This document shows positions 1-20,577 of a stretch of DNA of 64,000 nt, piece after piece; the stretch's first letter is position 1, and every line of letters starts with the position of its first letter. A model generated the notes under the pieces. That model did not search any database. It worked only from the letters and a program-made list of their open reading frames with translations, and was not told the origin of the DNA. Source of the stretch: Chitinophagales bacterium 33-2 (GTDB taxonomy: Bacteria > Bacteroidota > Bacteroidia > Chitinophagales > Chitinophagaceae); the NCBI GenBank assembly GCA_002050435.1, contig MWYV01000031.1, positions 1 through 64,000 on the forward strand. Direction: 5' to 3'. The position numbers and the translations under genes are program-made.

Positions 1-192
1 GGAGAAACCTTTGTAGTTGACGTTGAACCCGGGGCTGAACAAGCCGGTGAAGACTTTACTGAAGAAATGCAAAATGCAATTCCTCATGTGATATTAACAC
101 TTCAACATCTTTCTAACCTGAACAGCGAAGAATTGATTAATTTTAAACCACTCTATGGCGATACATTAATTGAAGAAAAAACAGATGCCTGA
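1..192 (+). CDS. C-terminal fragment of an unidentified protein, truncated by window start
   Basis: Frame 1 is open from base 1 to TGA at 190-192 (GETFVVDVEPGAEQAGEDF...TLIEEKTDA*); overlaps the next start. Confidence 0.55.
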   Translation, partial: GETFVVDVEPGAEQAGEDFTEEMQNAIPHVILTLQHLSNLNSEELINFKPLYGDTLIEEKTDA

Positions 193-598
193 AAATAATA
201 ATCATACAAATAAAAATGCAGTGGATGCCCTTTTTTGGCGTGAAGAAATCCTGCAGGTGCTTTATTGGATGGAAGGAGAAGGTTTAGAAACAGCGGTTCC
301 TTTCAGCCGGTTGATGGTTTTATTAAATACCAATTCAGACAATCTTTTATTTCATCTTCAAAAGAATGTAGCAGCTGGTTATCTGCAATCAAGTGATGAT
401 GGTATGACTGAAAACAGTTCTGTAAAGATGACACAATTCGGCAAAAAAGAAGCCGGTGCAATTTTTCGAAATGCATTTGAAGGCATGCAAAAAGCGGGTC
501 ACGGTGAGTGCGGGCCTGATTGCGAATTCTGCTACAGCGAAGGTGAAAAGCTGGAAGACTGCGTTCATAATTGTGCCGATAGCCGCCATCATCATTGA
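185..598 (+). CDS. Small winged-helix-like protein with Cys/His-rich C-terminal tail (possibly hydrogenase-associated)
   Basis: ORF track 170..598; ATG at 185 preferred over TTG at 170. Tail CGPDCEFCYSEGEKLEDCVHNCADSRHHH. Confidence 0.6.
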   Translation: MPENNNHTNKNAVDALFWREEILQVLYWMEGEGLETAVPFSRLMVLLNTNSDNLLFHLQKNVAAGYLQSSDDGMTENSSVKMTQFGKKEAGAIFRNAFEGMQKAGHGECGPDCEFCYSEGEKLEDCVHNCADSRHHH

Positions 599-825
599 TA
601 AATGGCCTAACTTTATTTGTGTCTTTTGCGGTTCCTTTATATCAATTGAATGTTTTTTACCACAAAGCAGAAGAATAGAAAAGTGATGCTGAAATGATGC
701 CATGAAAATAAACAGTACAAATGAGTGACCCCGCATAAAAGACGGGGGAGTTACAAACGGAGCTCCATTGAAATACAACTGATGGCTCCAACAAAAAGAA
801 AAGGTATAAAGCCAAAAGCTGAACA

Positions 826-1458
826 ATGGAAAGCATTTTCTTATCAGATACTGACTATGAGCAACTTGCTTCGCAAACAGAAGACCTGATTGCCAAAGTG
901 GATGACCTCCCCTACCCTAAAGTGAAAGATGATGTGCAGGCATTACTGCAAAATTTTGACATGCTTCACCGTGAAGCGCTTACCCGCTTATTCAAAGAAA
1001 TTATTATCAACTATCCCGCGCTGCACTCAAAAATGGAAAATGATAAAGCCGTATATTTATTGTTCAGCCTGTACGACCTTTTTCATAGCGATATACATAA
1101 TGAGATTTTATTGAGTGAGGATTTTGGTGGCAATGGTGATCAATACCCGCGATGGATACCTGTTGGCAATGCAAACGAACTGAAAGAAAATACGGCATAC
1201 AAATATGCCGAGGAAGGTGAAGTTGTTTTAATTTGTAAAACAGAAGGTACTGTGTATGCGGTTAAAAACTGTTGTGGCAACACTGCTTTGCCCCTTGATG
1301 GTGCGGCTATAGAAAAAGGTTATTTAATTTGTCCATGGCATGGATGCGCTTACCGTTTAAGTGATGGTGTTATGGAAACCAATCCAATGAACAAGCTCAA
1401 AAAATATCCTCTTACTATAGGTGATGAAGGGGTGATAAGATTAGGATTAAATATGTAA
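826..1458 (+). CDS. Rieske [2Fe-2S] domain protein with N-terminal helical domain
   Basis: C-terminal CPWHGCAYRLSDG Rieske box 2. N-terminal about 100 aa helical segment (LASQTEDLIAKVDDLPYPKVKDDVQALLQNFDMLHREALTRL). Confidence 0.75.
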   Translation: MESIFLSDTDYEQLASQTEDLIAKVDDLPYPKVKDDVQALLQNFDMLHREALTRLFKEIIINYPALHSKMENDKAVYLLFSLYDLFHSDIHNEILLSEDFGGNGDQYPRWIPVGNANELKENTAYKYAEEGEVVLICKTEGTVYAVKNCCGNTALPLDGAAIEKGYLICPWHGCAYRLSDGVMETNPMNKLKKYPLTIGDEGVIRLGLNM

Positions 1459-1526
1459 ATACCTTATTCCTAACCGGATTCTCTGCCCTTGATTTCAATT
1501 ATAGTATTTTTATAATTTTTACCATT

Positions 1527-2756
1527 TTGTTATTTTTAAATTCATTCCTCATCAAGCAACATAAAATTCATATTGTACACGTCTTCCTTTTCTTTTGCAT
1601 AATTCACTCCGCTGGGTGTTATAGTTTGAAAAAGGCAGAAAACCTCTCAGGTAGCCAAAGTGATAATGAACTAATGCTGCAAACAATTCTAAAAGCCGGC
1701 GAGGCTCATCGTTATATCATCGCTGTGGACGCCGGTGAATTCGTTCATATCAAAGCGCTGCAGAATGGCATAGATGTTATTGCAAAAGTTTCGGATATAA
1801 CTAATAACTGGGAAGGGGTGTTTGATTCGCCAACAGGAGAATTAGGATCTGAAGATATTTACTTGCTTAGTCATGCCAAAACTAAATATGAAATAGAAAT
1901 TTATCCGGCTCAAAAATTCGCCGACCCCGGTACATACAAAATTGAAATTTTCCAAAAAAGAAAAGCTTCTATTGCCGATAAAAAATGGATGACTGCTTTG
2001 ACAGCAACCCAAAATGCTGCTAAGTTGCGCTCAAAGAATGAAACACGGAAGCAAAGTATAGAGCAGTATAAAACCGCACTTTCATTATGGAAGGAATTAA
2101 AAGATGATGTTCAGTACGCAAGTGCAATGCGATCGCTTGGCTTTGTATATATCCGAGAAAACAATTATGAAAAATCGCTTGAGATTTTTCATCAATTGCT
2201 ATCCCAATGGAAACAAATTGGAGATGTTCGCGCCGAAGGATTTACGCATTTAATTATCGGACGCATATATGACCTGCAAAAGAATTTCACAAAGTCGCTT
2301 GAATACAATCTAAGTTCTCTTCCATACTGGAAAACAGCAAAGGATACCGACCAGGAATCATTTGTTTTAATGAACATTGGTAATCTTTATGCTGACTTAA
2401 ACGATAAACAAAAATCAATTGATTTTTTTGAGCAGGCTCTGAAAATAAATGAACAATCAAAACGCGCCTCTATAAAAGCCGTAATACTGCGGGATTATGC
2501 GACAGCCATGTTATCCGTTGGGGCATTTGAAAAAGCAATTCTGCTGTATGGTCAATCAATAAATCAATGGCAAATCACAGTCAATAAACTGGAAGAAGCC
2601 AAAACTGCTGTAATGCTTGCCGCATATTTTGCAGAAAAAAATAATAAGGAAAAAGCGACTCAGTATTATCAGCACGCCCTTGAAATATGGAAAACGTTGG
2701 ATGAGCAAAATGAAATGAAAAAAATTCAATCAGCTTTGGATAGGTTAAGAAAATAG
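1527..2756 (+). CDS. TPR-repeat lipoprotein resembling the N-terminal half of CHAT/TPR proteins
   Basis: Lipobox-like HSAGC after a hydrophobic stretch; several TPR-like repeats; non-ATG start (TTG). Confidence 0.7.
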   Translation: MLFLNSFLIKQHKIHIVHVFLFFCIIHSAGCYSLKKAENLSGSQSDNELMLQTILKAGEAHRYIIAVDAGEFVHIKALQNGIDVIAKVSDITNNWEGVFDSPTGELGSEDIYLLSHAKTKYEIEIYPAQKFADPGTYKIEIFQKRKASIADKKWMTALTATQNAAKLRSKNETRKQSIEQYKTALSLWKELKDDVQYASAMRSLGFVYIRENNYEKSLEIFHQLLSQWKQIGDVRAEGFTHLIIGRIYDLQKNFTKSLEYNLSSLPYWKTAKDTDQESFVLMNIGNLYADLNDKQKSIDFFEQALKINEQSKRASIKAVILRDYATAMLSVGAFEKAILLYGQSINQWQITVNKLEEAKTAVMLAAYFAEKNNKEKATQYYQHALEIWKTLDEQNEMKKIQSALDRLRK

Positions 2757-2889
2757 ATCCCTTGAGCAGAGTTGAATTTGGAATTTGAGGATATTAAATC
2801 CTGGTCTGTAACCTTGCCATAAATATTTTATCGTAGTTTGTATCAGCTAATTTGTTGATTTTTAAAATAGTTTTCAAACCTTTTTTTCT

Positions 2890-3732
2890 ATGACTAAAAG
2901 ATTTCTTCCCATTTCTGCGATTGTTCTTTCTATCACTGTTATGTTTTCATGTAAAGAAAACAGTTCTGGTGATACAAAAATCAATACATCAACTAACAGT
3001 GAGTTGCCTGTAAATATGGACGACTCTTCACGTGCTATTATTGACCGTGCTATTGCTTATGCAGGTGGATATGAAGCCTGGAACCAGAAGAAGACCATCT
3101 CATTTGATAAGAAAAGCATCAGTTATGATAGCACAGGTAAAGTAATAAGAGAAACGAACATGCACCTGGATTATATGATGAAGCCAGAGTTTAGAGCGAA
3201 GCTTACTTATAAGCTGAATGACACCACTATCACGCTAATTCATGATGGACAAAAAGCACGTAAGTTTTATAATGGTCAAATGTCGGATGAACAGAAAGAT
3301 ATTGATGCTGCCTGGAATTCATCGTTTGGCTCTCAATTTGTAATGTGCATGCCTTTTAAACTGAAAGACCCGGGCATTAAAGCTGAATATGCAGGGCAGG
3401 TAACATTGTCTGATGGTACACCTGCTCAGGTGGTAAAAACCGCGTACACAGAAGGTGCCGGCAGTAACCCCAACCACGTATGGTATTACTATTTTGAGCC
3501 AGGTACCGGTAAACTGCTTGCCAACTCGCTTTACACCAAAAACTACTGGGATTTTACCAGGTATGAAACTTTTGAAAAAACAGGCGGATTGATAATGCCT
3601 TCAGTTCGTAAAGGTTATGTAGCAGATACTTTAAATAAACCTACAAGGCTGGTATCAGTCAGTACACAGTATAATATTACCTTTGATAAAGGATTACCTG
3701 AAGATTATTTTAAAATGCCTGATGGAAAATGA
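2890..3732 (+). CDS. DUF6503-like lipoprotein
   Basis: Signal peptide with lipobox (VMFSCKEN); AGGYEAWNQKKTISFDKKSISYDSTGKVIRET resembles the ORF at 4321. Confidence 0.65.
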   Translation: MTKRFLPISAIVLSITVMFSCKENSSGDTKINTSTNSELPVNMDDSSRAIIDRAIAYAGGYEAWNQKKTISFDKKSISYDSTGKVIRETNMHLDYMMKPEFRAKLTYKLNDTTITLIHDGQKARKFYNGQMSDEQKDIDAAWNSSFGSQFVMCMPFKLKDPGIKAEYAGQVTLSDGTPAQVVKTAYTEGAGSNPNHVWYYYFEPGTGKLLANSLYTKNYWDFTRYETFEKTGGLIMPSVRKGYVADTLNKPTRLVSVSTQYNITFDKGLPEDYFKMPDGK

Positions 3733-4252
3733 TATACGTAAAATATTAATTGCAGGTGTTGGCAATGAGCTAAGGCAGGACGATGCATTTGGGGTAATGT
3801 TAGCGCAGAAGCTACAGGTAGAAGCATCACTTCCGCCTTCGGTAAAAGTGATGGAAATTGGGTCGGCCGGTATTCATTTGGTGCAGCAGTTATTTGATAA
3901 ATATGATGTGCTGCTATTGTTAGACATTGTAAAATGGGGGGAGGCAGCGGGAACGATTCATTTTAAAGAAGTAGAGGTAAAAGATATCGCCGAATTGCCA
4001 ACTGACGAAAAGAATGCGTTTTTAGCCGATATGCATTACATCAATCCATTAAAGGCTTTAATGATGGCAAAAGCATTAAAAGTTTTACCAAAACAAGTTT
4101 TGTTCTTAGGATGCGAATCGGAAGAGCATGAAGAGATTGGAATTGGTATAAGTGCAGCCGTGGAAGCAGCACTGCCGATAGCTTACATTAAAGTAAAAGA
4201 TTGGTTAAACAACAATGTTTACGCTAGGTCCTTAGGTGCTTCCTGTACGTGA
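3722..4252 (+). CDS. Hydrogenase maturation protease (HyaD/HycI family)
   Basis: MENDIRKILIAGVGNELRQDDAFGVMLAQKL; GVGNxxxxDDxxG motif. Start chosen at ATG 3722, overlapping the previous ORF. Confidence 0.85.
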   Translation: MENDIRKILIAGVGNELRQDDAFGVMLAQKLQVEASLPPSVKVMEIGSAGIHLVQQLFDKYDVLLLLDIVKWGEAAGTIHFKEVEVKDIAELPTDEKNAFLADMHYINPLKALMMAKALKVLPKQVLFLGCESEEHEEIGIGISAAVEAALPIAYIKVKDWLNNNVYARSLGASCT

Positions 4253-4320
4253 TTTTGAATTATTAAAAATTTGTAGTACTGCGTTAAAAATATTAAATTA
4301 CACAACCAAATTTTATACAA

Positions 4321-5258
4321 TGAAAGATTCTGAAAACCAACATCAGTCAGAAGATACTGAAGAGGTAAAACTGCCGTGGAAAACAGAACTTGAGGTAAAA
4401 GACCTTATCAAGCCTATTACTATCAGGCGGATAAAAATTTTACAAACATTGGGTATTTTCCTGTTATTATTTGCGATAGGATTTTTTACTTGGTGGCTGT
4501 TTGTAAAACCACCATCAGGGGAACAAATCGTAAGTGACATGGTGAAAGCAGTTGGCGGAATGGAGAATTGGAAAGGTATAAAGGATGGAAGCTTTGTTCG
4601 TACGCACCGGCTATATGATGAGAACGGGAAAGTCATCAAGGAGTCTGAAGAAACGTTTTTATTTAAAAACAACGACGAAGGTCACCAGCTTTTAATAAAA
4701 TCAATGGGTAAAGAAGGTGAGGTTGTAGTGGGACGGGATAAGGGTGGATTTTGGGCTATTCAAAATAATAAAGAAGTAAACCCTGTATCGCTTTCAAAAG
4801 AGATGGAGTTTATGTGTAGTGATGATGGATGCTCACCTCTTTGTGCAAGTGAAATGGCGTTATACCGTATGTCGTTCCCTTTTAAGTTAACTGACGATGG
4901 AGTGAAGCCCCGTAATGCAGGAACAGCGATGTTAAATGGGGAAAAGGCAATATTGTTAGATGTGACTTTTGACCCGAAGGTTGGACGGGACCGCTGGGTT
5001 TTTTATGTTGACCCCAACGATAAATTAATAAGGAAAATTGAACATTATCCATCGCTGAAAAGCAATGTACAGCCGGAAGAAATTTACCTTGACGATTTTA
5101 AAAGGGAAGGCAATATTGTTTTAAGCCATTCTAATAAATATTACCGGAGTAATGGAAAAATTTTAGAAGAATATTTAATTTCAGACGTGAAATTCAATTC
5201 CTCATTATCTGCGGATGTTTTCAACAGACCTCAACAGTTGAGTAGCCTGAATAGGTAA
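4321..5258 (+). CDS. Membrane-anchored DUF6503-like protein
   Basis: ORF track 4236..5258 with internal ATG 4321 preferred; one TM helix, then VKAVGGMENWKGIKDGSFVRTHRLYDENGKVIKESEETF, paralogous to 2890-3732. Confidence 0.65.
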
Positions 5259-5382
5259 AGTGATTAAACAATTTTAAAGAAATGGTCGAAAGATTTCACT
5301 TTAGCTCATTATCTCCTATTTTAAACTTGCAGTGGAATGGTAGCGATTGTACAACTAATCCGCATGAGCTTTTATCTAAACC

Positions 5383-5826
5383 ATGGAGCTTGAAATCATC
5401 CTAAGAATTATTTTAGAAGATTCAACTCCTGGAGTTGACTATGGATTACAGGAAGGTAAGGGTGTAGATTTCAAAACCGTTGAGACGAAGAGAGGTCATG
5501 GTGGCAGTTTGCAATTTGAATGCAGGGTTAGAGTAAAATCTTCTGCCGGCAACCCTCCTGTTTTTCTTGGACCGTTTGCGCAAGGCCCGCGCGGTGACCG
5601 GTTTATTTATATTGATATTGGAACTTTTGCAGGGCAAAAAGATTCATGTTGGAGCCGCCGTTTAAAAATTCCATTGACAGGGATAACACCGGAAATTATA
5701 AAGCAATCAGTATCTGACTCTAACATGTTATGTGAAGCATTCGTCCCCGGTTCAGAAAAAGGAGGCGGACCAAATTGCGGAACGGTAAAACCTTTCAATG
5801 GATGGAAACTGAGACGGAGTGAATAG
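5383..5826 (+). CDS. DUF5990-like hypothetical protein
   Basis: Complete ORF; VFLGPFAQGPRGDRFIYIDIGTFAGQ typical of the family (by recall). Confidence 0.6.
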   Translation: MELEIILRIILEDSTPGVDYGLQEGKGVDFKTVETKRGHGGSLQFECRVRVKSSAGNPPVFLGPFAQGPRGDRFIYIDIGTFAGQKDSCWSRRLKIPLTGITPEIIKQSVSDSNMLCEAFVPGSEKGGGPNCGTVKPFNGWKLRRSE

Positions 5827-5837
5827 CCGTTTGGATG

Positions 5838-6614
5838 TTATGCTTTTACAGTTTCCAGCAAATCGTTTGCTAACTGATTTATAGCCAGTAAAGCGGGTGA
5901 ACCATCAATAGCATTGATATCTAATGAACCAGTTTTATCGGCTTCGGCAATAGTAGCATCATATGGAATAACTGCAATAACCGGTAAATTTGTCTGTAAA
6001 CAAAATTGACGAATGGCTTCTTCATCTTCTGCATTCTTTACTTTATTTGCAACAGCAACTATATTTTTGATTTCAAGCTCTTTACCCAGGCGCTGAAAAC
6101 GGGCAACTGCCTCCATGGAACGATAATAGGGTTCCACCACACAAAGCAAAACATCAACATATTTTGAAGTGCCCCGTTTCATTTGTTCAAGCGAAGCTTC
6201 AAGATCAAGCAAAGTTACTTGTTCACTTTCTTCCAAAGCAGTATGAATTATTTCTCTCACAGTAGTATGAATACCGCACATACATCCTGTACCTGCATGT
6301 TCCGGCTGCCCTACGGCTAACAAAGTAACATTATCGTTAGTTTTTACACCATAATTATCCATCACTTCAGATAGTGGTGCATTAAGTTTAGCATATTTTT
6401 TACCATCATCCTTTTCATAAACCTCCAGTAACTTTGAAGTAAGTGCTTTAGGCATTGTAGCCTTGGGATCTATGCCCAGCGTTAGTGCCAGGTTTGGATT
6501 TGGATCACCATCAATAGCAAGTACAGAAATACCTTTACTACCTAAACTTCTGCATAATAATCCACTGATAGTTGTTTTACCCACCCCTCCTTTTCCACAT
6601 ACAGCTATTTTCAT
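5838..6614 (-). CDS. CooC/MinD-like P-loop ATPase (nickel insertion/maturation type)
   Basis: MKIAVCGKGGVGKTT deviant Walker A; CxC motif in GTGCMCGIHTTVREI as in CooC. Confidence 0.8.
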   Translation of the reverse strand: MKIAVCGKGGVGKTTISGLLCRSLGSKGISVLAIDGDPNPNLALTLGIDPKATMPKALTSKLLEVYEKDDGKKYAKLNAPLSEVMDNYGVKTNDNVTLLAVGQPEHAGTGCMCGIHTTVREIIHTALEESEQVTLLDLEASLEQMKRGTSKYVDVLLCVVEPYYRSMEAVARFQRLGKELEIKNIVAVANKVKNAEDEEAIRQFCLQTNLPVIAVIPYDATIAEADKTGSLDINAIDGSPALLAINQLANDLLETVKA

Positions 6615-6642
6615 TATTTAAATTTTATGATGATAGCTAAAG

Positions 6643-7302
6643 TTAATTATATTTTATTTGGATGCCTGTAAACCAAAGATGAAACTTTCCATCTTTTGTT
6701 TTGTGATCCTGCGCAATCTGTAGCCCATTAAAATCTCTATAGTTTTCCCAGGTTGTTATTAATGAGGGTTTTGCAGCACCCGCGCTATGATACGCCCACT
6801 CTTGTATACGTTTTTTTTCATCTATATATACATCGTATATATCACCCGGCGTAAAACCATCTTTGTCATTATATTTTATTGTGATCTTATGCAGGCTTTT
6901 GCCACTGATAGGCGCTGGCTTCATGCTGCTGTCTGTAAATTCAAAGCCATCGTCCCAACCCAGGTGAAAAGGAAACAACAGCCAATATTCATCGTTCGTA
7001 AACCGCGCATTCAACTTCTTTAATTCTTGTGTTGAAGTATCCGTTCTTTTAAATTTTGTATGGCTACTATCCGTTATAAAAACTACTTCATTGCTTTTTG
7101 GATACCATTGCCAGTGGCGGCTGGATGCCGGAGCCGTATCCCGTTGTACATTAAATATAAATTCCAGCATTTGCACTTTGCTGAAGTTATTGATACCATT
7201 AGCAACTGAAACTTGATCTGTAATCTTTTCTTCCGAAGTTTGCTGATTACAAAATTGTAAAACTATAAGGCAAGAAAAAAGTAAGCCAAATTTCATATTC
7301 AA
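6643..7302 (-). CDS. DUF6503-like secreted/lipoprotein
   Basis: Signal peptide ending in FCNQQ; C-terminal TPGDIYDVYIDEKKRIQEWAYHSAGAAKPSLITTWENYRDFNGLQI. Confidence 0.6.
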   Translation of the reverse strand: MNMKFGLLFSCLIVLQFCNQQTSEEKITDQVSVANGINNFSKVQMLEFIFNVQRDTAPASSRHWQWYPKSNEVVFITDSSHTKFKRTDTSTQELKKLNARFTNDEYWLLFPFHLGWDDGFEFTDSSMKPAPISGKSLHKITIKYNDKDGFTPGDIYDVYIDEKKRIQEWAYHSAGAAKPSLITTWENYRDFNGLQIAQDHKTKDGKFHLWFTGIQIKYN

Positions 7303-7444
7303 AGTTATTCCTGTCTGCGCCAGATTAAAAGTAAGATTATATAGTAATCACAACTCAATGATTCAGCTTTTGTTCCTAAATAATTATCTGAAAAACAAAT
7401 TGCTTTCAAAGTATTTACTCATTTTATCAATCAATAGGATTGCT

Positions 7445-8215: not shown

Positions 8216-8746
8216 ATGTTACGCTTACCAATCATCGTCTTCGCTGTTGCTTTTTTAACTACCGCTTGCGGCAATGCCCAATCCAAAAAAATAGTCATTC
8301 AGAAAAATAATGAACAAAATACCTACCCCATGCAATTAACGGATGCACAGTGGAAAGAAAGGTTAACATCAGAGCAATATTATATACTCAGGCAGCAGGG
8401 GACTGAACGCCCAGGTACAGGCAAACTGAACAATTTCTACAAAAAAGGAACTTATTACTCTGCCGCTTCATTACAACCCATTTTCAGTTCCGAAACAAAA
8501 TTTGATTCAGGAACGGGTTGGCCAAGTTTTTATGCCCCCATTAACAAAGATGCTATTCGTCTGGTTAAAGACGATGGAGATGGAATGGTTCGTTGGGAAG
8601 TTGTAGACAGCAAAAGTGGATCGCACCTAGGGCATGTATTTGATGATGGACCTAAACCAACTGGCAAACGGTATTGTTTAAATTCTGCAGCGTTGATTTT
8701 TGTGCCGGAAGGTGGTGTGCCTCCAACTAATTCGAAGAGTAATTAA
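8216..8746 (+). CDS. msrB: Peptide-methionine (R)-S-oxide reductase, lipoprotein
   Basis: [30 protein letters not shown]; lipobox TTACGN. Confidence 0.93.
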
Positions 8747-8764
8747 TAAAAAAAGAAAGGGGTC

Positions 8765-9415
8765 ATGAAAAATTTATCAGTTTTATTCCTGTGTTTATTA
8801 ATGATGGCAGGCCTTGTATCCTGCGGACAGAAGCCTCAAATGGCAACTACTATAAAAGAGCAGAAAGACCTGTCAAACTATAGCCAGGCTAATTTTGCTT
8901 CTGGCTGCTTTTGGTGTGTAGAAGGAGTTTTTGAAAGTGTGAAGGGTGTAGAAGAAGCCGTCTCGGGTTATGCCGGCGGTAAAGAACCCAACCCTACTTA
9001 CGAATCGGTAACCGCACATACAACAGCCCATGCAGAGACAGTACAGGTATATTATGACCCATCCATTGTTTCGTATGCCACATTGCTGAAAGTTTATTTT
9101 GCTTCCCAGGATCCAACCCAGGTAAACGGGCAGGGTCCCGATCACGGAGCCTCTTACCGATCTATTATATTTTATCGCAATGCCGATGAAAAAATGCAGG
9201 CGGAAAAATACATTGCAGAAATACAGAAAAATTATAATAACCCAATTGCGGCCGAAGTTGTTCCTTTAGAAAAATTTTGGATGGGTGAGGACTATCACCA
9301 GGATTATATTTTGCACAATCCTAATGTGCCGTATGTTAAAATGGAAAGCATTCCACGTATAAAGCGCTTTCAAAAACAACATCCTGAATTAATAAAGCCA
9401 GATCGAAAACTATAA
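8765..9415 (+). CDS. msrA: Peptide-methionine (S)-S-oxide reductase, lipoprotein
   Basis: GCFWCVEGVFESVKGVEEAVSGYAGG; lipobox LVSCGQ. Confidence 0.93.
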   Translation: MKNLSVLFLCLLMMAGLVSCGQKPQMATTIKEQKDLSNYSQANFASGCFWCVEGVFESVKGVEEAVSGYAGGKEPNPTYESVTAHTTAHAETVQVYYDPSIVSYATLLKVYFASQDPTQVNGQGPDHGASYRSIIFYRNADEKMQAEKYIAEIQKNYNNPIAAEVVPLEKFWMGEDYHQDYILHNPNVPYVKMESIPRIKRFQKQHPELIKPDRKL

Positions 9416-10239: not shown

Positions 10240-11565
10240 ATGCCGCAACACATCGTCATTATTGGGAACGGAATTTCGGGCATCACCTGTGCAAGAAATG
10301 TCCGTAAGCAAAGCAATGATGACATTACCGTGATCTCTTCAGAAACAGAACATTTTTACTCACGTACTGCGCTCATGTATATCTACATGGGGCACATGAA
10401 GTATGAACACACCAAACCTTACGAAGATTGGTTTTGGCAGAAGAACCGCATACAATTGGTGAAAGATTATGTGACTTCAATCAATGTAAATGGTAAAAAT
10501 GTTTTATTGCAAAACGGCGCTTCCATCAATTATGATAAGCTGGTGATTGCTACAGGTTCTGTTTCTAACAAACCGAATTTTACCGGAATAAATTTAATCG
10601 GTGTACAAAGTTTATATGGTATGCCTGATATTGAATTGATGAATGAAAATACACGAGGCATTGAAAAAGGTGTAATTGTTGGTGGTGGATTAATAGGTAT
10701 TGAAATGGCAGAAATGTTATTGTCAAGAAATATACATGTAACTTTTTTGGTCAGAGAAAATTTCTACTGGGACAATATATTGCCAAAAGAAGAAGCCACC
10801 CTGGTTTCGAATCATATAAAAGAACATCATGTTGATCTGAGAACCGCCACAGAGTTGAAAGAGATAAAAGGTGCCCGAAAAGTAAAATCAATTATCACCA
10901 ATGAAGGGGAAGAAATTGCCTGTGAATTTGTTGGAATTACAGTTGGTGTTAGTCCCAATATTTCCATAATAAAAAACACAGAGATAGAAGCCGACAAAGG
11001 TGTGTTGGTGAATGAATTTTTTGAAACCAATATACCGGATATATATGCCATAGGTGATTGCGTGCAGCACAGAAATCCACCACCGGGAAGAAAAGCAATT
11101 GAACAAATTTGGTACACGGGCAGAATCCAGGGTGAAACATTGGCTGCAACACTTTGCAGCAAAAAAACGGCCTACAATCCCGGTCCTTTTTTCAACTCAG
11201 CGAAATTCTTTGATATAGAATATCAAACTTATGGAAAGGTAAATCCGCAGCAGGGTGAAAATGAAACTTCTTTTTATTGGGAACATAAAAATGGCAGGAT
11301 TTGTTTCCGTGCTGTCTATAGAAAAGATAATGAAGCGATCATTGGGTTTAATGCTTTAGGTACAAGGCTTCGTCATGCGGTTTGCGATAAATGGTTACAA
11401 GAGAAAAGGAAGATTGATGATGTGATGTCAAATCTTGATCAATTAAATTTTGATCCTGAGTTTTGTGATCATTATGAAAAAGAAATTCTTTCTGCCTATA
11501 ATAAGCAAACAATGAAAAATATTAAAGGCAAAAAAAGAAGGAAACTTTCTCTTTTCAATTGGTAA
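10240..11565 (+). CDS. NAD(P)/FAD-dependent pyridine nucleotide-disulfide-type oxidoreductase
   Basis: GNGISGITCARN and GGGLIGIEMAEML dinucleotide-binding motifs; IYAIGDC. Confidence 0.88.
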   Translation: MPQHIVIIGNGISGITCARNVRKQSNDDITVISSETEHFYSRTALMYIYMGHMKYEHTKPYEDWFWQKNRIQLVKDYVTSINVNGKNVLLQNGASINYDKLVIATGSVSNKPNFTGINLIGVQSLYGMPDIELMNENTRGIEKGVIVGGGLIGIEMAEMLLSRNIHVTFLVRENFYWDNILPKEEATLVSNHIKEHHVDLRTATELKEIKGARKVKSIITNEGEEIACEFVGITVGVSPNISIIKNTEIEADKGVLVNEFFETNIPDIYAIGDCVQHRNPPPGRKAIEQIWYTGRIQGETLAATLCSKKTAYNPGPFFNSAKFFDIEYQTYGKVNPQQGENETSFYWEHKNGRICFRAVYRKDNEAIIGFNALGTRLRHAVCDKWLQEKRKIDDVMSNLDQLNFDPEFCDHYEKEILSAYNKQTMKNIKGKKRRKLSLFNW

Positions 11566-11583
11566 CGCTTTATCAAAAATATT

Positions 11584-12942
11584 ATGGTTCCACCCACTAC
11601 TACTAACCCTTCACTTTCACTAACAGAAGAAGGTAATGAGCAAACCCTATATCAGAAAATAGGGGGCATCTGCATCGCTATCGCTGTACTGTCATTAGTT
11701 GCTGCTATATCAGGAGTTGGCGGCGCATATTCATTCCTCCTGCTAACAATTATTATAGGCATGTTCACGCTGGGCGTTGTCTCTTATGCATTGCCTTATT
11801 ATAAAGGGCCGGCAGGTATCCGCAACAACGGCATTATGTTTAAAACCATGACCAACCGGGGAACGATTGCATGGATTTTTGCTATTGTGCTTACCGGATT
11901 TTATATCATAATTTATTGGTTTCCCTGGATGTTTGAAGGTTTGATACGAATATTTGATCCGCTGAGCAGACTATTGACTAACCAACCCGCCAACCAATGG
12001 TTTATGTATGGTGCATTTTACACACTGGCAGTATTGACAATGGGTATAAGATTTATTGGAAAAAACCGGAATAGTCGCTATCATGTTATCCGCACCTTTT
12101 CTGTAATGTTTTTTCAATTGGGTTTTGCATTTCTCCTTCCAATGTTCCTCAAAAAATTAAACGAACCTGAATTTTATTTTTCTTACTTCTGGCCCCTTAA
12201 ATTCAGTTACCTTTTCCCTTCCGATGTTTCTTCTTTAATTAATTCAGGAAGTCTTGGCGTGTTCATGGTTTTTTGGGGAGCGGTGATGACTTTTATTGCC
12301 ACACCAATCCTTACATATAAATATGGTAAGCGCTGGTATTGTTCGTGGGTTTGTGGTTGTGGTGGCTTAGCCGAAACTGCCGGTGATCCTTATCGCCATT
12401 TGTCTGATAAAAGTTTAAAAGCCTGGAAAATTGAAAGATGGATGGTACACAGCGTACTTGTTCTCATTACCGTTATCACTATTTTACTATGGTTAAATTC
12501 TTATTACAAAGGCGGCATTCTTGGTTCTGTTTCAGGTCCATTTGCCCAATGGTATGGTTTCTTTATTGGGGGCGTTTTTTCAGGAGTAATTGGTGTAGGA
12601 TTTTATCCCATAATGGGTTCAAGGGTCTGGTGCAGATTTGGTTGCCCTATGGCTGCAATTCTAGGAATATTTCAACGCTTCAAATCAAGGTTTAGAATTA
12701 CAACCAATGGCGGACAATGTATTTCCTGCGGCAATTGCTCTACCTTTTGCGAGATGGGAATTGATGTTCGTTCTTACGCACAAAAAGGCCAAAACATTGT
12801 AAGGGCTTCCTGCGTGGGCTGCGGCATATGTGCATCTGTTTGTCCGCGTGGTGTTTTAAAATTAGAGAACGGGAAAGAAGAAGGCAGGATCAACGATAAA
12901 CCGATCACAATAGGCAATAACCACATTACAGTTAATTTATAA
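11584..12942 (+). CDS. Membrane 4Fe-4S binding protein (NapH/NosR/CcoG-like)
   Basis: Multiple TM helices; CSWVCGCG, CRFGCP, CISCGNCSTFCEMG and CVGCGICASVCPRG. Confidence 0.88.
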   Translation: MVPPTTTNPSLSLTEEGNEQTLYQKIGGICIAIAVLSLVAAISGVGGAYSFLLLTIIIGMFTLGVVSYALPYYKGPAGIRNNGIMFKTMTNRGTIAWIFAIVLTGFYIIIYWFPWMFEGLIRIFDPLSRLLTNQPANQWFMYGAFYTLAVLTMGIRFIGKNRNSRYHVIRTFSVMFFQLGFAFLLPMFLKKLNEPEFYFSYFWPLKFSYLFPSDVSSLINSGSLGVFMVFWGAVMTFIATPILTYKYGKRWYCSWVCGCGGLAETAGDPYRHLSDKSLKAWKIERWMVHSVLVLITVITILLWLNSYYKGGILGSVSGPFAQWYGFFIGGVFSGVIGVGFYPIMGSRVWCRFGCPMAAILGIFQRFKSRFRITTNGGQCISCGNCSTFCEMGIDVRSYAQKGQNIVRASCVGCGICASVCPRGVLKLENGKEEGRINDKPITIGNNHITVNL

Positions 12943-19784: not shown

Positions 19785-19926
19785 CAGATCCTCTAAAAGA
19801 AGGTTTTAGTAAAGGTAAGGACACGCTTTTTTTAATCTCTAAATAGAACCAACCTATTGTTAAAAATTCTTTCTTGGCTTTTCATTGTCTATTTTCAGAG
19901 TGAATTTTGTTCACCTTCATCAAGCT

Positions 19927-20577
19927 ATGACAAAAGCCCTATTTTTTTCCATTTTTGGAATTTTTATTTTTTTTGCCTGCAACACCGAAAAAAGATATAA
20001 AGGTATGAGCACTTCGTTGATCCATTCGTTTGAAAAAACCGATACAGCCACTTTTGGAACAGGTTGTTTCTGGTGTACCGAAGCCATTTTTGAACAACTC
20101 AATGGCGTATTAAGTGCTACTTCAGGGTATACCGGTGGCCAGGCTCCCAATCCTACCTACAAAGAAGTTGTTAGCGGGCAAACAGGTCACGCTGAATGTG
20201 TGCAAGTGGTATATGAACCCGGAAAAATTAGTTTTGATGATTTGCTGGAAGTTTTTTTCCAGGTACACGATCCAACCAGTTTGAATCGCCAGGGGGCTGA
20301 TATAGGTACACAGTACCGGAGCGCCATATTTTATGCTGATGTACATCAAAAAGAAAAGTCGGAATATTATATTGCTGAATTGAATAAAAGTGGTGCTTAC
20401 AACAAACCCATTGTTACAGAAATTGCTTCGCTGACTAAATTCTATCCAGCTGAAGACTATCACCAGGAGTATTACGAAAACAATAAAAGCACCAATCCCT
20501 ATTGCTCTGTTGTTATTCGTCCCAAGCTTGAAAAATTTGAAAAAGTTTTTGCAAAGAAATTAAAAAGCAACAATTAA
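19927..20577 (+). CDS. msrA: Peptide-methionine (S)-S-oxide reductase, second copy, lipoprotein
   Basis: GTGCFWCTEAIFEQLNGVLSATSGYTGG; lipobox FFACNTE; ATG 19927. Confidence 0.92.
   Translation: MTKALFFSIFGIFIFFACNTEKRYKGMSTSLIHSFEKTDTATFGTGCFWCTEAIFEQLNGVLSATSGYTGGQAPNPTYKEVVSGQTGHAECVQVVYEPGKISFDDLLEVFFQVHDPTSLNRQGADIGTQYRSAIFYADVHQKEKSEYYIAELNKSGAYNKPIVTEIASLTKFYPAEDYHQEYYENNKSTNPYCSVVIRPKLEKFEKVFAKKLKSNN

Follow-up and report, generated by a model that had tools for sequence, protein, structure and literature searches.

Accessory genes at a Chitinophagales contig end probably belong to a group 1h/1l [NiFe] uptake hydrogenase cluster with a candidate CooC-type nickel ATPase

Introduction

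Group 1h and 1l hydrogenases have been reported as major oxidisers of atmospheric H2 in desert and Antarctic soils. The group 1h operons of Cupriavidus necator H16 (the AH enzyme, 5AA5) and of the Chitinophagaceae genome G137 combine the large and small subunits with a HycI-type protease, hyp genes and an Fe-S accessory protein, which in G137 is a NifU-Rieske fusion, and 1h clusters also carry DUF5947 and DUF6084 accessory genes. Group 1l (hylL), known from Antarctic and desert soil bacteria, has been reported from Bacteroidota and from soils of the Mackay Glacier region (PMC10305171, PMC9561532, PMC7677003), and persistence on the group 1l enzyme has been reported for a Bacteroidota isolate (PMC10305171). 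In the literature we found no account of how the 1l type matures, how it is anchored or how it is connected to respiration.

Two further systems are relevant to the locus described here. The P-loop ATPase CooC inserts nickel into carbon monoxide dehydrogenase (CODH) and resembles HypB in its architecture (PMC9164220, PMC6006190), and Thermococcus kodakarensis possesses an ATPase-type HypB of the Mrp/MinD family (PMC7055735). HucE, with a Rieske-like C-terminal motif, and HhyE of M. smegmatis are both encoded in structural operons of hydrogenases devoid of cytochrome b, and it has been argued that they relay electrons toward the quinone pool (PMC6883350).

We analysed a window of 64,000 nucleotides (G000:C58:1-64000), by which we mean the whole stretch of DNA under study, whose base 1 coincides with the contig end. 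Very probably, the window opens among the accessory genes that form the downstream half of a cluster encoding an aerobic uptake [NiFe] hydrogenase. The enzyme would be membrane-associated and non-exported and would belong to the 1h/1l branch, the likeliest type being 1l. The locus would offer, for Bacteroidota, a compact parts list with a CooC-type nickel ATPase in the place of HypB, a metal-tailed winged-helix protein, an altered Rieske-like carrier and five mini membrane proteins.

Results and Discussion

Gene Content at the Contig End

The genes at the start of the window were compared with those of three other genomes carrying the same module: a Chitinophagaceae metagenome-assembled genome (MAG) of a sister genus, MGR_bin208 (G049; contig C86, JACCYQ010000009, locus L041, the same record as L045), a Flavisolibacter MAG, MGR_bin269 (G775; locus L044), and G973 (contig C9, locus L091). 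All four are apparently draft assemblies, and G049 includes one mis-binned contig. The features are as follows:

1-192, plus strand: C-terminal 63 codons of a degenerate maturation-protease-like protein, 76-78% identical to L041:5446-6039 and L091:12047-12592
185-598, plus strand: winged-helix (MarR-type) protein with a Cys/His tail, 79-89% identical in the three other genomes
826-1458, plus strand: N-terminal domain of about 105 residues followed by a divergent Rieske domain (PF00355, E 7e-13)
1527-2756, plus strand: TPR protein (PF13424), absent at the same place in L041, L044 and L091
2890-3732, plus strand: putative DUF6503 lipoprotein (PF20113, E 2e-10), 64-70% identity in three genomes, at the same position
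3722-4252, plus strand: HycI/HupD-type maturation endopeptidase (TIGR00072, E 1e-30, over the cut-off; PF01750, E 2e-16), 75-85% identity in three genomes
4323-5258, plus strand: second DUF6503-like protein (hhalign to DUF6503 96%, E 3.5e-9) with one transmembrane helix, residues 37-55
5383-5826, plus strand: DUF5990 protein (PF19452, E 1e-37), absent from L041, L044 and L091
5838-6614, minus strand: CooC-type MinD/SIMIBI ATPase with the CXC motif GCMC; CooC1 (3KJE, E 5e-32) is its only strong PDB match
6643-7302, minus strand: putative lipoprotein, syntenic in G049 only and not beside CooC in G973

An earlier note on this DNA had read here the edge of a hydrogenase-linked accessory module and had named the maturation protease, the Rieske protein, the CooC-like ATPase and the winged-helix-like protein with its Cys/His tail, with TPR and DUF6503-like proteins interleaved. 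All these genes are present where it placed them, as profile matches, the match of the CbiA/MinD-type ATPase to CooC1 and the predicted winged-helix fold bear out, and the reading of the kind of locus is correct. A further module gene, absent from that listing, ends in bases 1-191, which encode its C-terminus, and its stop codon overlaps the start codon at 185.

The order winged helix, Rieske, DUF6503, protease is constant in the four genomes, and in each contig that extends far enough the degenerate protease-like protein precedes the winged-helix gene. The membrane DUF6503 protein occurs in the window, G049 and G973, and is absent in G775. The TPR gene, an insertion found in the window only, and the DUF5990 gene, likewise confined to the window, were rejected as parts of the module; the gene at 6643-7302 is probably flanking, and its reading as a third DUF6503 protein was unsupported by hhalign. 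The claim that DUF6503, TPR and CooC are not standard parts of such a system therefore stands for TPR, but DUF6503 and CooC are constant parts here. Between the window and its relatives dN/dS was 0.04-0.13 where dS could be estimated, several pairs being saturated, and the module genes are under purifying selection; together with the synteny in four genomes, this speaks against the random association of genes that the earlier note had named as a refutation of its reading.

The Complete Cluster in Relatives

The uptake hydrogenase of the 1h/1l kind that had been presumed upstream of base 1 was found in the relatives. In G049 the same genes lie behind the C-terminus of a [NiFe] large subunit (FDPCMPCTTH), itself cut by the contig edge and 95% identical to that of G973, while in the Flavisolibacter MAG the winged-helix, Rieske, DUF6503 and protease genes are followed by CooC. 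A whole-genome search revealed that the 156 kb contig of G973 carries the whole cluster. HypF, HypC, HypD, HypE and, past a serine hydrolase, CooC are encoded in one direction, as is a TetR gene. The divergent run consists of the small subunit (415 aa), five small proteins and the large subunit (627 aa), which follow one another with gaps of at most 10 bases. A stretch of about 7 kb with other genes then separates the large subunit from the degenerate protease-like protein and, in turn, the winged-helix protein, the Rieske-like protein, DUF6503, the protease and the membrane DUF6503 protein. The G973 proteins are 57-79% identical to their counterparts in the window. The analysis thus adds to the earlier note the complete cluster, the separation of core genes from bystanders, an enzyme most likely outside group 1h, an altered Rieske site and a possible exchange of CooC for HypA/HypB.

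Since the large subunit and the accessory genes are parted by an S9 peptidase gene in G049 and by the 7 kb stretch in G973, a single transcript is only putative. The S9 peptidase was rejected as a part of the module: it occurs in G049 only (the best match in G000 has 30% identity) and follows a broken duplicate of the N-terminal part of the adjacent gene. This duplicate, derived from the degenerate protease-like gene and located between the large subunit and the peptidase (L041 8300-8460, minus strand), was probably left behind when a gene was inserted in G049.

A Rieske-pattern search of genome contigs returned two MAGs only and a class-level search added no member; when plasmids were searched with the Rieske, degenerate-protease and CooC proteins, no module turned up outside Bacteroidota. 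G049 has a second CooC (contig C51, 100% identical), which was considered as a duplication, but this reading was rejected. The 2454-base fragment that carries it (L082) is a 99.9% identical copy of window 4857-7310, mis-binned in a different genus, which suggests that both MAGs derive from the same metagenome.

Assignment of the Enzyme and the Place of CooC

The bin to which the window belongs (G000) is 90% complete, with the contig broken at base 1, and gave no match to the [NiFe] large subunit (PF00374) or to HypD; HypD was not found in three of the bins. One could read this as a relict, in which the species lost its hydrogenase and hyp genes and only the accessory genes remain. We regard this as highly improbable, as every module gene is intact and evolves at the low dN/dS given above where it is estimable. 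Moreover, the window contig ends inside the module, and those of G049 and G775 end no more than a few kb from that point. Such a shared end argues for a break in the assembly and against a loss of genes; the assembly probably broke there because related strains co-occurred.

As for the enzyme itself, the large subunit of G973 bears the motifs L1 SRACGVCGG and L2 FDPCMPCTTH and, with the small subunit (PF14720, E 1e-23), has the features of a group 1 [NiFe] uptake hydrogenase. Its sequence shares 42-43% identity with the group 1h enzymes from C. necator and G137, against 23-27% with the remaining Bacteroidota hydrogenases that were compared, and 5AA5 is the best PDB match for both subunits. An ordinary group 1h enzyme would be favoured by the closest relatives among solved structures and plasmids, which are 1h, and by the reported inability of HydDB to tell 1h and 1l apart (PMC11519504). 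This we consider improbable: in a maximum-likelihood tree the large subunit falls, on a long branch, outside the HhyL clade, as sister to all four 1h sequences tested (support 100/100, 40-43% identity), its small subunit has CDGC as the proximal-cluster motif in place of the CDGD of the four 1h small subunits, thus missing the 1h Asp, and the G973 cluster, as far as it was read, showed no recognisable DUF5947- or DUF6084-like gene. Together with the reports of 1l from Bacteroidota and Mackay Glacier region soils, these features make group 1l the most likely, though putative, assignment, as judged from comparison with 1h and other Bacteroidota enzymes. The present cluster would share with group 1l the bacterial phylum, the sister position to 1h and apparently the Antarctic region, as the 'MGR' in the names MGR_bin208 and MGR_bin269 would fit the Mackay Glacier region. 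Compared with the 1h operons, with which it has in common a related small subunit, a HycI-type protease, hyp genes and an Fe-S accessory protein, it differs also by the five one-helix proteins between the subunit genes and by the presence of CooC, and has neither a NifU domain nor hypAB in the cluster.

The place of CooC can be questioned in a similar way. CooC is known only for the maturation of CODH, the R. rubrum protein does not mature the Coo hydrogenase (PMC6006190), and in the window the gene lies on the minus strand, opposite to the module; it might therefore, perhaps like the winged-helix protein, be a mere neighbour that serves CODH or a role in chromosome or pole positioning. We find this unlikely, if less so than the two alternatives above. 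Of 148 genomes of the family, G000 and G049, both with the module, are the only ones with CooC, and none of the 146 others has it, although hydrogenases occur among these; the CXC motif is kept; and in G973 the gene has shifted to the hypE side, about 2 kb beyond hypE and some 22 kb from the protease, yet it is still in the cluster. This restriction to genomes with the module, and its retention after rearrangement, indicate that CooC is not background. In addition, the genes beside CooC in the window, G049 and G973 include no recognisable CODH gene.

CooC, the Winged-Helix Protein and Possible Nickel Insertion

The window protein resembles CooC1 of Carboxydothermus hydrogenoformans (3KJE-3KJI) over 229 residues, and the deviant Walker A motif GKGGVGKTT and GCMC are present in three genomes; here the gene accompanies a hydrogenase cluster and not a CODH operon. 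On these motifs it is a candidate nickel-insertion ATPase, whose nearest functional parallel would be the ATPase-type HypB of T. kodakarensis. The cluster of G973 contains no hypA or hypB, and neither HypA nor HypB was found in the 2.42 of 3.6 Mb (67%) of this genome covered by tblastn (first 2.02 Mb) and by a profile search with positive controls.

The winged-helix protein ends in a nearly invariant tail, HGECGPDCEFCx...DCVHNCADSxHHH. AlphaFold2 predicted a winged helix-turn-helix for 185-598 and a tail of low confidence, which is probably flexible, and the best Foldseek matches were AdcR/ZitR, of the MarR fold (E about 1e-3). The protein is thus a candidate metal-binding maturation factor or regulator.

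A substitution of HypA/HypB by CooC and the Cys/His protein is plausible, though unproven. As a whole, the proposal that these two proteins replace HypA/HypB and that the five paralogous one-helix proteins anchor the enzyme is tentative, and we would call it possible rather than probable. Should CooC take the place of HypA/HypB, this would be, to our knowledge, the first case of a CooC-type protein inserting nickel into a bacterial [NiFe] hydrogenase; the only parallel that we found in the literature is the ATPase-type HypB of Thermococcus (PMC7055735).

A Maturation Protease and Its Degenerate Paralogue

The protease at 3722-4252 shows the expected GNxLxxDDxxG signature with its Asp and His (GNELRQDDAFG, LLDIV and DMHY), so that the ligands D, D and H are kept at the Ni-ligand positions, which we take to be those of HybD. 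In the full-length L041 copy of the degenerate paralogue these positions are taken by H and A, with no His at the third. This protein, of about 180-200 aa at full length in the relatives, is HycI-like by profile only (hhalign 93.5%, E 2e-7), and the loss of the nickel ligands would be consistent with a chaperone role. The C-terminal extension of the large subunit ends in CACGLE, an unusual Cys motif, in L041 (8532-8600) and L091 (19724 onward), within the piece expected to be cleaved off.

The Rieske-Like Protein

The earlier note was right about the family of the protein at 826-1458, but the canonical Rieske motif CxH...CxxH is not present: the motif reads CC-GN...CPWHGC, and the first His is replaced by Asn or Ser in all four orthologues (C-G-S in G973). 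Extra Cys residues at 149 and 174 are conserved throughout, and a three-Cys/one-His site is possible. The protein differs from HucE, in which the motif is CxH...CxxC, by its CC...CxxH-x-C pattern, and no NifU domain was found in it by profile search. By analogy with HucE and HhyE, we propose that it may act as an electron carrier.

Proposed Assembly and Electron Transfer

No Tat leader could be read on either subunit, and the enzyme should therefore face the cytoplasm. In the proposed pathway, HypC-F would build Fe(CN)2CO, CooC together with the Cys/His-tailed protein would deliver nickel, and the HycI protease would remove the 22-residue tail after DPCMPCTTH, while the degenerate paralogue would assist as a chaperone without catalytic activity. 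Anchoring of the enzyme would fall to the five mini membrane proteins, each with one membrane helix and several detectably related to one another, and the divergent Rieske protein, in the manner proposed for HucE and HhyE, would pass electrons toward the quinone pool. The two DUF6503 proteins may represent an envelope lipoprotein and its membrane partner, which is the least certain step. The TPR, DUF5990 and 6643-7302 genes would be bystanders.

Other Observations

One protein carries CPGCPAC near its end and belongs to no confident Pfam family, and the structure predicted for a 208-aa protein was unusable (pLDDT 31). Further into the window, at 8216-9415 and 19885-20577, methionine sulfoxide reductase-like genes with signal-like N-termini were noticed by eye (an msrB-msrA pair and a second msrA). 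Similarly, at 10240-12942 a FAD-dependent NAD(P)H-type reductase appeared, by eye, to lie beside a CcoG-like membrane ferredoxin protein, a possible electron-transfer pair.
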